Assembly (NCBI RefSeq): GCF_900187035.1
Contig: NZ_LT906446.1
Span: 1,550,001 to 1,614,000 of the forward strand
Source: Megamonas hypermegale
GTDB taxonomy: Bacteria > Bacillota > Negativicutes > Selenomonadales > Selenomonadaceae
Direction of reading: 5' to 3'
DNA: 64,000 nucleotides
Positions within the stretch are counted from its first letter, which is position 1. Each line of letters starts with the position of its first letter. Below are positions 29,069 through 59,310 of the stretch, piece after piece. Made by a program: the position numbers and the translations under genes. Under the pieces are notes generated by a model. The model did no database searches. It was not told the origin of the DNA and worked only from the letters and a program-made list of their open reading frames with translations.

Positions 29069-29144
29069 TCCTCGATAGCTCAGTTGGTAGAGCAATCGGC
29101 TGTTAACCGATCGGTCGTAGGTTCGAGTCCTACTCGAGGAGCCA
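29069..29144 (+). tRNA. tRNA-Asn (GTT), first copy
   Basis: The 76-nt cloverleaf has acceptor TCCTCGA/TCGAGGA, D arm AGCTCAGTTGGTAGAGC, anticodon loop CTGTTAA, T arm GTAGGTTCGAGTCCTAC and encoded CCA. Confidence 0.96.
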
Positions 29145-29162
29145 TTTTCTAACATATCAAAT

Positions 29163-29238
29163 TCCTTGATAGCTCAGTTGGTAGAGCAATCGGCTGTTAA
29201 CCGATCGGTCGTAGGTTCGAGTCCTACTCAAGGAGCCA
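29163..29238 (+). tRNA. tRNA-Asn (GTT), second copy
   Basis: It is identical to the first copy except for one acceptor base pair, C-G changed to T-A on both sides (TCCTTGA/TCAAGGA). The pairing is preserved. CCA is encoded. The copies are 18 bp apart. Confidence 0.96.
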
Positions 29239-29249
29239 TTTTTATTTTT

Positions 29250-29324
29250 GGGCCTATAGCTCAGCGGTAGAGCCCCCGGCTCATAACCGGTTGGTCCCTG
29301 GTTCGAATCCAGGTGGGCCCACCA
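29250..29324 (+). tRNA. tRNA with CAT anticodon (Met, or Ile decoding AUA)
   Basis: The 75-nt cloverleaf has acceptor GGGCCTA/TGGGCCC with one G-U pair, anticodon loop CTCATAA and encoded CCA. A CAT anticodon reads AUG, or AUA if the C is modified to lysidine. Sequence alone does not settle which. It lacks the initiator's features. Confidence 0.9.
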
Positions 29325-45920: not shown

Positions 45921-45942
45921 TTTGTGTAAAATTGTAATATAA

Positions 45943-47214
<1,272 letters not shown>

Positions 47215-55304: not shown

Positions 55305-55308
55305 AAAA

Positions 55309-55352
55309 CAAAAACCTCTATAATACAACGCGTATTGCAGAGGTTCTTTTTT
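55309..55352 (+). terminator. Intrinsic terminator after the SEDS gene
   Basis: AACCTCT pairs with AGAGGTT, with an inner ATAC/GTAT helix, and is followed by CTTTTTTT. Confidence 0.8.
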
Positions 55353-55386
55353 TATAAATTTCAATAATATCATTTTTCTAGAGAAA

Positions 55387-56015
55387 GTAAAAAGCGATTA
55401 ACACATCTTCATGTTAATCGCTTTTCAATTAGTATACTGTGTATACAACTAAATCCCTCTTTATTCAATTTTTTGTTGCAATTTCTTCCCTTAAGTTAGA
55501 AGTCCTTGCTGTATTTTTCAGTCAGCTAACGTGTGCAATATGCATCTAGTTTCAATATAAGATATCTTAGAATAAATTAAAATCTAAAATTATCTAACCT
55601 ACCAACCTTAAATACCTAATATACATTCATTCGAACATATATCATACATTTTAAATACCATTTCTTCTAGATACAAAACATATATCTAAATTACTTTTGA
55701 TATTTTTGCTTTTGCAAAGCTTTTTTTTGTAACGTTACTTTTTAATGCGCATAAGAATGAAAATTTGTTGTTGCTATTAATGTTCACTGCCTCGTTATGC
55801 TTCTAACGATGCCTCTCCTAGGCTTGCTTTCTTCAACAGCTTGACATATCCCAAGTACAGTTCACACTAAGGCTTTCTGTAACTTCTTCTATAGTCGGCC
55901 ACATCCTTTCGAATGCATAAAAAATAATTTTTTTCGGGTTCCTCTGTACAATATATATTGCTCATTCTCCCTAAAAATTACTTTCTTAGCAACCCTTGTG
56001 CATTTCCCCTTTGCT
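55387..56015 (-). ncRNA. Candidate large structured non-coding RNA, about 630 nt
   Basis: This 630-bp stretch has no credible reading frame but has its own minus-strand promoter (56022-56050) and intrinsic terminator (55390-55425). Local helices are dense: a 6-bp stem capped by a GAAA tetraloop (55901-55916), GCCT/AGGC (55811-55823), TCGTTA/TAACGA (55792-55809), TAGATA/TATCTA, a nested AGATA..TTAGA/TCTAA..TATCT helix near 55566-55600, and GTATAC/GTATAC near 55431-55446. GGGTT near the 5' end can pair with AACCC about 75 nt later. G-rich, purine-rich 5' sequence differs from the AT-rich spacers elsewhere. Length and style recall OLE, ROOL or GOLLD RNAs, none of which I can assign by eye. It is not recognisable as tmRNA, RNase P, 6S or SRP RNA. 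Confidence 0.72.
55390..55425 (-). terminator. Terminator of the large RNA candidate
   Basis: Perfect 14-bp stem AAAAGCGATTAACA/TGTTAATCGCTTTT with an 8-nt loop. On the minus strand it is followed by a T run and TACTTTCTC. No protein gene uses it from that side. Confidence 0.85.
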
Positions 56016-56021
56016 GATTAA

Positions 56022-56050
56022 ATTATACCATATATTTAATCAAATTGCAA
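56022..56050 (-). promoter_or_regulatory. Extended -10 promoter of the large RNA candidate
   Basis: On the minus strand TTGCAA (56045-56050), 17 bp, TATAAT (56022-56027) with TGG just before it, an extended -10. Transcription should start near 56015. Confidence 0.8.
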
Positions 56051-56106
56051 TAATCTAACTATTCATTTTTTAATTTTATTATAATAAAATTAAATATATT
56101 TATAAC

Positions 56107-56140
56107 AAAGTGTCTACTAAAACTCTATAGTAGACACTTT
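56107..56140 (-). terminator. Hairpin after dhaL, probable terminator
   Basis: AAAGTGTCTACTA and TAGTAGACACTTT form a perfect 13-bp stem 19 bp past the dhaL stop. The following T run is weak (TTTGTTAT). It would isolate dhaL from the RNA gene downstream. Confidence 0.7.
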
Positions 56141-56158
56141 CGAACAATATAATTTTTA

Positions 56159-57882: not shown

Positions 57883-57955
57883 AAAAAGACTGTAACAAGT
57901 GAACTGCACCCCAAAAGTTGGACAAAAAAACAACTTTTGGAGGTGCAGTTTTTTT

Positions 57956-58462
57956 ATGACTAAATACTCAAATGAATTTAAAGTTAAAGCAATTAAAATG
58001 GTTTTAAAAGGAGATTCTATTTCTCATGTAGCTAAAATTCTAAACATGCCAAACACAGCTTCTCTTCGTAGATGGATATTTCATTATGAAAATGGTGGCA
58101 TCTCACAACTTCTTCATAAAAATCGTAAATATACTCCTATCTTTAAGCAAAAAGTTATTGAATATAAATGGCTACATCATTTATCATTAAATCAAACAGC
58201 AGCCAAATTTTCCATTCCTAATACTGGTACAATTTCTACATGGGAAAAGTTGTATAGTTCTTATGGATTTTCTGGCTTAATTTCTAAGAAACGAGGTAGA
58301 CCATCTATGAAAAAATCTAAAAACAAACTTAACAAACCTAAAAAAGAACTTTCTTATGTTGAACAATTGGAACAAGAAGTTTATCAATTAAGGATGGAAA
58401 ATGACTTATTAAAAAAGTGGCATGCCTTAATGAAGCAATGGGAAAAGGAAGGAAGACACTAG
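57956..58462 (+). CDS. IS150-type transposase OrfA, copy B
   Basis: The 168-residue OrfA starts at the ATG at 57956, with GGAGGTG upstream inside the element. It has the same double helix-turn-helix and leucine-zipper layout as copy A. Differences from copy A include Ser for Tyr in the first helix-turn-helix (GDSISH), Ser for Pro before LRRW and the loss of a Ser-Lys pair in the linker. The A AAA AAG slippery site is at 58411-58417. Confidence 0.93.
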   Translation: MTKYSNEFKVKAIKMVLKGDSISHVAKILNMPNTASLRRWIFHYENGGISQLLHKNRKYTPIFKQKVIEYKWLHHLSLNQTAAKFSIPNTGTISTWEKLYSSYGFSGLISKKRGRPSMKKSKNKLNKPKKELSYVEQLEQEVYQLRMENDLLKKWHALMKQWEKEGRH

Positions 58463-59310
58463 TTTTAGTAATTGCTAAATTAAGGAAAAAATATACTCTA
58501 AAAGCCCTATTAAACTATACAAAATTAGCTAAAAGCACATATTATGATGCATTAAAAAAATTATCAAAAGAAGACAAATATAAAGGATTAAAAACATTAA
58601 TTCATAATATTTGTAATAAAAATCATGGAAGATATGGATATAGAAGAGTAACTTTGCAGCTGCATAAACAAGGAATAAAAGTCAATCATAAAGTAGTTAT
58701 GAGATTAATGAAAGAAGAAAATTTAACATGCAAAGTAAGAGCAAAGAAATATAAATCGTATAGAGGGCAAGAAGGGAAAATAGCTAAAAATATATTAAAT
58801 AGAAATTTCAAAGCAGAAAAACCAAACGAAAAATGGGCAACAGATGTAACAGAATTTGCATTATGTAATGAAAAAATATATTTATCACCAATAATAGATT
58901 TATATAACGGAGAAATAATAAGTTATAAAATATCGAAAAGACCAATACTAAAGCAAGTATTAGATATGGTAAAAGATGCAACAAGAAAGATAAAAGAAAC
59001 AAAAGGAATAATTCTACATTCAGACCAAGGATGGCAGTATCAGAATAGAAGATATCAGGAGTTATTAAAAGAAAAAGGCATTATCCAAAGCATGAGCCGA
59101 AAAGGAAATTGCTTAGATAATGCCGTAATAGAAAATTTCTTTGGTTTGCTAAAAAGCGAATTGTTTTATTTAAAAAAATTTAAATCCGTTGAAGATTTTA
59201 TAAAAGAGTTAAAATCTTATATAAAATATTATAATACAAAACGGATAAAGATAAAACTAAAAGGACTTAGTCCCGTAGAATACAGAACTAAGTCTCAATT
59301 AATAGCTTAA
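58417..59310 (+). CDS. IS150-type transposase OrfB, copy B
   Basis: The 297-residue OrfB has the intact DDE triad (ATDVTEF, LHSDQGWQY, CLDNAVIENFFG). It differs from copy A at only a handful of residues (for example KVRAKK for KIRAKK and KAEKPNEK for KASKPNEK). Both copies are open, so either could supply transposase. Expression should be as an OrfAB fusion by -1 slipping. Confidence 0.95.
   Translation: MACLNEAMGKGRKTLVLVIAKLRKKYTLKALLNYTKLAKSTYYDALKKLSKEDKYKGLKTLIHNICNKNHGRYGYRRVTLQLHKQGIKVNHKVVMRLMKEENLTCKVRAKKYKSYRGQEGKIAKNILNRNFKAEKPNEKWATDVTEFALCNEKIYLSPIIDLYNGEIISYKISKRPILKQVLDMVKDATRKIKETKGIILHSDQGWQYQNRRYQELLKEKGIIQSMSRKGNCLDNAVIENFFGLLKSELFYLKKFKSVEDFIKELKSYIKYYNTKRIKIKLKGLSPVEYRTKSQLIA

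Follow-up and report, generated by a model that had tools for sequence, protein, structure and literature searches.

The locus examined here raises the question of what occupies the largest gene-free gap in the window (the whole 64-kb stretch of DNA that was analysed), and whether its content belongs to a known class of RNA. The gap covers positions 55305-56158, 854 bp without an open reading frame of at least 80 amino acids. It is flanked by a plus-strand gene whose product is an FtsW/RodA/SpoVE protein and by the minus-strand gene dhaL, which encodes a Dak2 protein. A reading made from the sequence alone had placed a large structured RNA of unassigned family between a SEDS gene and dhaL in the largest gap of the window; the flanks match FTSW_RODA_SPOVE and Dak2, and the rank of the gap stands, although its size had been put at 750 bp. 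The second-largest gap, of 562 bp, contains a T-box leader (45941-46139, plus strand, 117.6 bits). Elsewhere on the plus strand the window holds three tandem tRNA genes at 29069-29321, the first two near-identical, and two overlapping ORFs of a two-frame-type transposase (HTH_28/HTH_Tnp_1, then rve) at 57899-59310; a menaquinone-biosynthesis gene separates these ORFs from the start of dhaL, about 1.1 kb away.

The elements that delimit the putative RNA gene are as follows.

56022..56050, minus strand: promoter, with -35 TTGCAA (56045-56050), a 17-nt spacer and extended -10 TGGTATAAT (56022-56030)
55385..56015, minus strand: RNA of ~630 nt, from ~6 nt past the -10 to the T-run of the terminator, both ends inferred
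55388..55427, minus strand: intrinsic terminator, a hairpin followed by T

The promoter had been predicted as TTGCAA-17-TATAAT with an extended -10, and was located at 56050-56022 with TG before the -10; it shares the top rank among 12 promoter-like sites between 54500 and 57000, a number of sites that is not above that in shuffles (14.4). The predicted terminator was likewise located, at 55427-55388, and is the strongest of three terminator-like sites where 0.8 were expected. On the minus strand within the RNA a scan with ATG, GTG and TTG starts gave no ORF of at least 34 amino acids. The predicted fold of the RNA, terminator included, has an energy of -149 kcal/mol and beats each of 20 shuffles (-113.7 kcal/mol, sd 6.1; z -5.8).

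Searches with the window DNA found the sister species G001 and traces at E ~1e-3 in two genera; at E up to 1 the same search 'matches' 158 of the 189 genomes of the window's family, nearly all by chance. In the sister species the same two genes flank the RNA, its promoter and terminator are at matching places, and it is 63% identical to the window RNA over 747 aligned columns. We followed two leads from this search, both covering the same part of the RNA (G178 and G179, E ~1e-3), and these proved to be whole genes with the same layout, located elsewhere in the chromosome. As queries, at E up to 0.005, their RNAs reached 20 and 41 of the family's 189 genomes, a portion of these matches being due to chance. 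From 33 full-length RNAs extracted first, with promoters placed by hand and terminators by script (four corrected by hand), six near-duplicates were dropped to leave 27. Promoter and terminator were found in all 33, and lengths counted from the -10 range from 374 to 644 nt in these and from 433 to 680 nt in six members identified later. Among the 30 members that have enough upstream sequence, the promoter repeatedly shows a -35 of the TTG type and a -10 extended by TG. In group g21 the promoter stretch TATTGCAATNRTCTGA extends beyond the -35 hexamer; across 22 genomes it has 10 matches in nine genomes, all upstream of this RNA, which rules out a regulon sharing this exact pattern.

Covariance models of the central domain (R1) and the 3' domain (R2) were used to survey 380 Negativicutes genomes. 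R1 matches 51 of them, all within the window's family, and R2 matches 58, with 55 in that family, at a cut-off of E up to 0.01 per genome at which about four chance hits are expected. Nine loci from weaker R2 hits were read for promoter, box, loops, tail and terminator; six appear real and three false. The hits in G030 and G038 (E 0.0016) are among those judged real. Three were rejected by eye: the hit in G099 falls where a coding frame ends, the one in G238 where a gene starts, and the one in G197 has no recognisable promoter, box or terminator. G204 (E 0.0076), which comes from another family and is the sole genome of that family in the collection, was accepted from the reading of its locus and not from its score. 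In total the RNA is present in 62 of the 380 genomes: the window's family contributes 61 of its 189 (in 17 of its 30 genera) and the 191 genomes outside it contribute one. This count includes the window and its sister, which were placed by DNA similarity and synteny. Since R1 misses the window itself, the lack of a model match is no proof of absence. Each genome has one match, with the exception of G162. A scan of the whole collection for the exact family pattern returned 29 genome contigs, labelled Selenomonas, Mitsuokella, Selenomonadaceae or Veillonellaceae and, in one case, Megamonas; no viral contig contained the family pattern or a 20-nt string from the window, exact matches only being counted.

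The window RNA is itself an outlier to these models. It is not found by R1, and R2 built without the window's genus ranks it first in the 64 kb with an E of 0.1, next to a spurious hit at 0.2; at the whole-genome threshold of E 0.01 neither the window nor its sister is listed. An nhmmer profile built without the window's genus places its two best segments in the 64 kb within the RNA, each with E 0.042, in the correct order and on the correct strand, both below the inclusion threshold; on the sister the values are 0.16 and 1.1. The decisive link between the window and the family is synteny with g8, where in three genomes (L201-L203; R2 E 8.8e-7, 7e-5 and 8.7e-4) dhaL precedes the RNA and shares its strand, the arrangement seen in the window. 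On the basis of this synteny, the order and strand of the profile matches, the weak model hits and the chained DNA similarity, we take the window RNA to be a divergent member. It retains the promoter, the box, the palindromic loops, the tail motif and the terminator, and the start of the mini-ORF described below is gone. The features along the RNA are the following.

55899..55910, minus strand: conserved Shine-Dalgarno-like box GAAAGGATGTGG, among the two best profile segments
55889..55891, minus strand: position of the relatives' UUG start, TAG in the window, so that the start is lost (comparison by eye)
55827..55837, minus strand: GUUGAAGAAAG, like the central-domain GGUGAAGAAA of the relatives; the rest of the domain is unrecognised by R1
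55729..55738, minus strand: palindrome GUAACGUUAC, tentative site b, the same in the sister species
55519..55533, minus strand: hairpin with the self-complementary loop AGCU, site a
55478..55509, minus strand: hairpin GCAAGGACUUCU-AACUUAAG-GGAAGAAAUUGC with the palindromic loop CUUAAG, site d
55454..55468, minus strand: tail motif UUGAAUAAAGAGGGA, conserved in the family
55432..55446, minus strand: short hairpin GUAUACACAGUAUAC, retained in the sister species

The position of the gene relative to dhaL allows a different account, in which the transcript would belong to dhaL or to the SEDS gene as a leader or 3' region acting in cis, or would be the remnant of an eroded protein gene. The RNA lies downstream of dhaL in the window, in L032 and in the three g8 loci, and no terminator was scored between dhaL and the RNA. 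An inverted repeat seen by eye at 56108-56139, between dhaL and the RNA promoter, may end dhaL; as the terminator scan did not score it, partial read-through from dhaL is possible. Against this, the RNA has a promoter and terminator of its own, its strand carries no ORF of 34 amino acids or more, and its neighbours differ elsewhere: L005 has a radical SAM gene beside it, as does L004 when read by eye, L039 has an Lrp-like gene (names assigned by eye) and g23 has an ORF that by eye resembles ribosomal protein S2. We regard a cis-acting element or an eroded gene as barely credible.

Comparison with Rfam (4227 models), which the sequence-only reading had proposed, gave no family match, OLE, ROOL and GOLLD included. 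In the window RNA no model reached its gathering score, and relaxing the limit to E 10 brought up nothing but sub-gathering matches, all to unrelated families; the same holds for 11 relatives (E up to 3 for three of them, up to 2 for eight). The models for tmRNA, RNase P, SRP, 6S and other RNAs had no match in the window or the 11 relatives, nor did those for ROOL and GOLLD, which is in keeping with the doubt already expressed about these two classes.

OLE requires separate consideration. OLE has been reported in most major Bacillota classes with the exception of the Negativicutes, according to the parts of PMC11332333 that we consulted, and the RNA could in principle be a highly divergent OLE member in the one large class reported to lack it. 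Its size is similar, and OLE loop L9.3, in the sections of PMC12286853 available to us, likewise switches between GGCC, GAUC and AGCU. However, a search with the OLE model (RF01071) came up empty in the window (E up to 10), in three related loci (E up to 3) and in eight more (E up to 2). The model was also silent in all of 150 Negativicutes genomes, but the positive-control genomes gave no match either. The gene for OapA, a CNNM-like membrane protein, is not adjacent to the window RNA, as had been remarked in the earlier reading; its neighbours encode the FtsW/RodA/SpoVE and Dak2 proteins, the flanks alone being considered. An OLE origin is in our judgement very improbable.

RNAalifold applied to a MAFFT alignment of 16 members produced a poor global structure, and the RNA was for this reason analysed domain by domain. 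Alignment A1 omitted six divergent rows of the 27 (L058, L033, L039, L045, the window and L032), and alignment A3 comprised 24 of 52 segments, with the window and its sister excluded. Alignment A2, which had one motif out of place, was set aside, and the widest 3' alignment was too poor to yield a model. Of 27 pairs in the central domain, 18 are altered on both sides, compared with 11.3 in shuffles, and 82.7% of cells are paired, compared with 31.7-41.5% when the partner strand is slid; there is no excess of further pair types (38 versus 37.9 in shuffles). In the 3' hairpins 12 of 15 pairs are altered on both sides, compared with 10.0 in shuffles, a count reached by 60 of 500 shuffles; the covariation score is 0.548, against 0.289 for shuffled and at most 0.211 for slid alignments. 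The 5' domain is strongly conserved among 28 aligned members, in an alignment that left out nine near-duplicates, members missed by the pattern, L034 and L082; its helices were recognised by eye only. Conserved stretches also exist outside the helices. A two-species fold of the window and its sister lends only weak support. By eye, L121 and L124 have apparent insertions in the 5' part, upstream of the box. In genus g27 (L045, L125 and L126) R2 detects no 3' domain, and the box, mini-ORF and central domain are present; the RNA of L045 measures 374 nt.

The absence of conservation or of covariation in relatives would have refuted the original reading; the relatives are conserved, and the central and 3' domains covary. 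With relatives in 17 of 30 genera, covariation and no Rfam match, the proposal of a large structured RNA of unassigned family is upheld, and we are very nearly certain that this is a real family of large structured RNAs, undescribed within the reach of our searches, of which the window holds a divergent member.

The 3' half of the RNA contains two palindromic loops. A palindrome scan over 56 aligned members evaluated 575 centres with at least 30 rows, and the mean share of 6-nt palindromes over these centres is 1.8%, about the level of chance. Of the 53 rows at site d, 87% have a palindrome there, with the core UCGA or UUAA, and in other members the sequence is UCGCGA, off the alignment column; the loop palindromes CUCGAG, CUUAAG and UCGCGA switch between genera. 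At site a, 76% of 55 rows have a 6-nt palindrome and 93% have one of 4 nt, with the cores AGCU (35), GGCC (7), CGCG (6), GAUC (2) and CUAG (1); one of the GGCC rows is a misaligned terminator. The next palindromic sites reach 47%, with a single palindrome, CCGG, and 43%. After dereplication by genus, 17 of 20 6-mers at site a have palindromic cores, versus 7.9 in column shuffles (P <=5e-5), and 11 of 16 at site d, versus 6.7 (P 0.014; 2.5e-4 for 6 nt). Six later members are also palindromic at site a (L201 and L209 by eye), and no palindrome was seen by eye at site d in L204 and L209. Two further sites, b and c, were convincing by eye and fail the column-shuffle test in this alignment, and are retained as tentative only.

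Sites a and d are the loops of hairpins with covarying stems. Judged from sequence comparison, the switching of palindromes at these positions is the mark that a symmetric kissing loop joining two RNA copies would leave. In OLE, loop L9.3 switches between GGCC, GAUC and AGCU and forms a dimer contact, and palindrome switching in OLE L9.3 and in GOLLD has been matched to kissing loops from cryo-EM, as described in the portions of PMC12286853 that we could consult. Because the same switching in those RNAs coincides with kissing loops visualised by cryo-EM, homo-oligomerisation of the new RNA is likely though inferred. We consider it probable, in the absence of biochemical data and with the pairing itself not shown, that copies of this RNA pair with one another.

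The same loops could alternatively belong to a monomeric structured RNA, for example a ribozyme or protein scaffold, in which they would dock a symmetric protein or another RNA. The length of the RNA, its covariation and its conserved stretches outside the helices are all compatible with this. Five different palindromes at one site, however, suit self-pairing better than recognition by a sequence-specific protein, and neighbouring bases of such a loop are unable to pair within one chain, an argument taken from the part of PMC12286853 available to us. A monomer is improbable, if not to be dismissed.

Upstream of the central domain lies the conserved box, GAAAGGAUGUGR or a variant. In 57 of 62 RNAs no other site is predicted to bind the 3' tail of 16S rRNA more strongly. 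Its anti-Shine-Dalgarno energy equals the best among the window's 54 gene starts (-13.2 and -12.8; median -7.4). This energy is in itself unexceptional, as a site of -12.5 or lower also occurs in 21% of shuffled RNAs; since shuffles reach similar energies, the case for a ribosome box rests on its conserved position. The sequence-only reading had pointed here to a stem with a GAAA tetraloop; the hairpin GCATTC-GAAA-GGATGT is present in the window RNA but is not a feature of the family, in which a GAAAGGATG-type box is conserved instead.

In 51 of 56 members the box is followed by a mini-ORF that starts with UUG (44) or CUG (7) 14-17 nt past the start of the box. It has 9-18 codons, with 12-14 in 49 of the 51, and mostly stops at a UAG beside the first helix of the central domain. 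Where several starts fit (three members), the frame nearest 13 codons was chosen; the five members without a mini-ORF have no candidate start at all. Two of the six later members, L204 and L205, also carry it by eye, for a total of 53 of 62. Counting stops in frames that had been chosen as open is circular, and that count was superseded by one with fixed end points, in which the starts come from the ORF scan and members with short frames were not excluded. With end points fixed, interior stops occur in the mini-ORF frame of one of 46 sequences, compared with 18 and 16 of 46 in the other frames and 19.3 of 46 expected from shuffles; by genus the counts are one of 13 versus nine and six of 13. 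In 11 of 51 members the triplet that follows the helix strand falls outside the frame, which in these members ends at another stop. Codons show no synonymous excess (24 of 91 changed codons, versus 20 of 84 and 20 of 89 in the comparison). As stops are rare in frame yet synonymous changes are not in excess, it is the frame that is kept and not the peptide. Genome G162 contains two copies of the RNA (L053 and L128) on different contigs, with identical mini-ORF peptides.

The start is absent in nine of 62 sequences (the window, its sister, L039, L040, L127, L201-L203 and L209; by genome, the window, its sister, both g9 sequences, G002, the three g8 genomes and G204). The earlier statement that the locus has no plausible reading frame is accordingly true of the window and a minority of members, and most relatives carry the box and the mini-ORF. 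Because the window lineage, g8 and g9 keep the box without a start, contact with the ribosome, or another use of the box, is perhaps the older role. We lean slightly towards ribosome contact at the box, for which there are no binding data.

A box, a start and a stop retained in position in most members, with in-frame stops rare, would also be expected of a dual-function RNA like RNAIII of staphylococci, in which the peptide of 12-14 amino acids would be the product and the rest of the RNA a regulatory 3' region. All 21 sequences of group g21 have peptides that begin MK[IK]S. The interior of the peptide is variable, however, with no synonymous excess, and nine of 62 sequences keep the RNA without the start, so that we find a functional peptide unlikely.

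Taking these observations together, we favour an explanation in which a chromosomal gene at this locus, with its own promoter and terminator, produces a large structured RNA. Two or more copies of the RNA would join through self-complementary kissing loops into a homo-oligomer, and a 30S subunit would dock at the Shine-Dalgarno-like box. In most members the 30S would then translate the mini-ORF until it meets the first central-domain helix, and translation itself, not the peptide, may gate the folding or assembly of the remaining RNA. The oligomer, the docking and the gating are all inferences, made without expression or biochemical data, and we assign the explanation as a whole a probability of roughly 0.6. 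A more specific version, in which the homo-oligomers act as a ribosome-tethering device that pairs, stores or clusters 30S subunits via the box, with translation of the mini-ORF as the release switch, is a long shot at present; if true, a ribosome-tethering RNA would operate in a class reported without OLE.

We did not find this RNA described in the literature, subscription papers, preprints and supplements being outside the scope of the search. It is not described in the passages around our search terms in the discovery papers PMC11109978 and PMC8632094 or in the metatranscriptome paper PMC7160235. Large structured bacterial RNAs of unknown function are called rare in the consulted part of PMC11109978, and natural RNA multimers are called rarely observed in that of PMC12286853. 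The family would add hosts among cultured species of Selenomonas and Mitsuokella. Its genus-level loop swaps make self-pairing directly testable by compensatory mutation, and a ribosome-binding-site-like box combined with a mini-ORF of which the frame, and not the sequence, is kept is an unusual combination that offers a handle on function.

RNAIII of staphylococci is a dual-function RNA, and with RNAs of this type the new RNA shares a long structured transcript, a small ORF and a strong ribosome-binding site; it differs in that its peptide is unconserved and the start is missing in whole groups. The dimerisation initiation site (DIS) of retroviruses is a six-base, purine-flanked palindrome in a hairpin loop that varies between palindromes; the likeness is one of mechanism only, and the RNAs are unrelated. 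GOLLD is about 800 nt long, and the new RNA is shorter. With no Rfam match and its exact pattern in no viral contig, the new RNA stands apart from both GOLLD and ROOL, and it occurs once per genome except in G162. Like those two RNAs, which are large, ornate and form homo-oligomers by self-interacting kissing loops (PMC12286853, as far as consulted), it may assemble through contacts between identical loops. A parallel in size and setting is OLE (RF01071), also of ~600 nt, chromosomal and from Bacillota, in which the symmetric kissing loop L9.3 switches palindromes in the dimer (same source, same extent). The new RNA differs from OLE in having no match to its covariance model and no OapA gene adjacent in the window, and in carrying two palindromic loops in its 3' half, a Shine-Dalgarno-like box and a mini-ORF.
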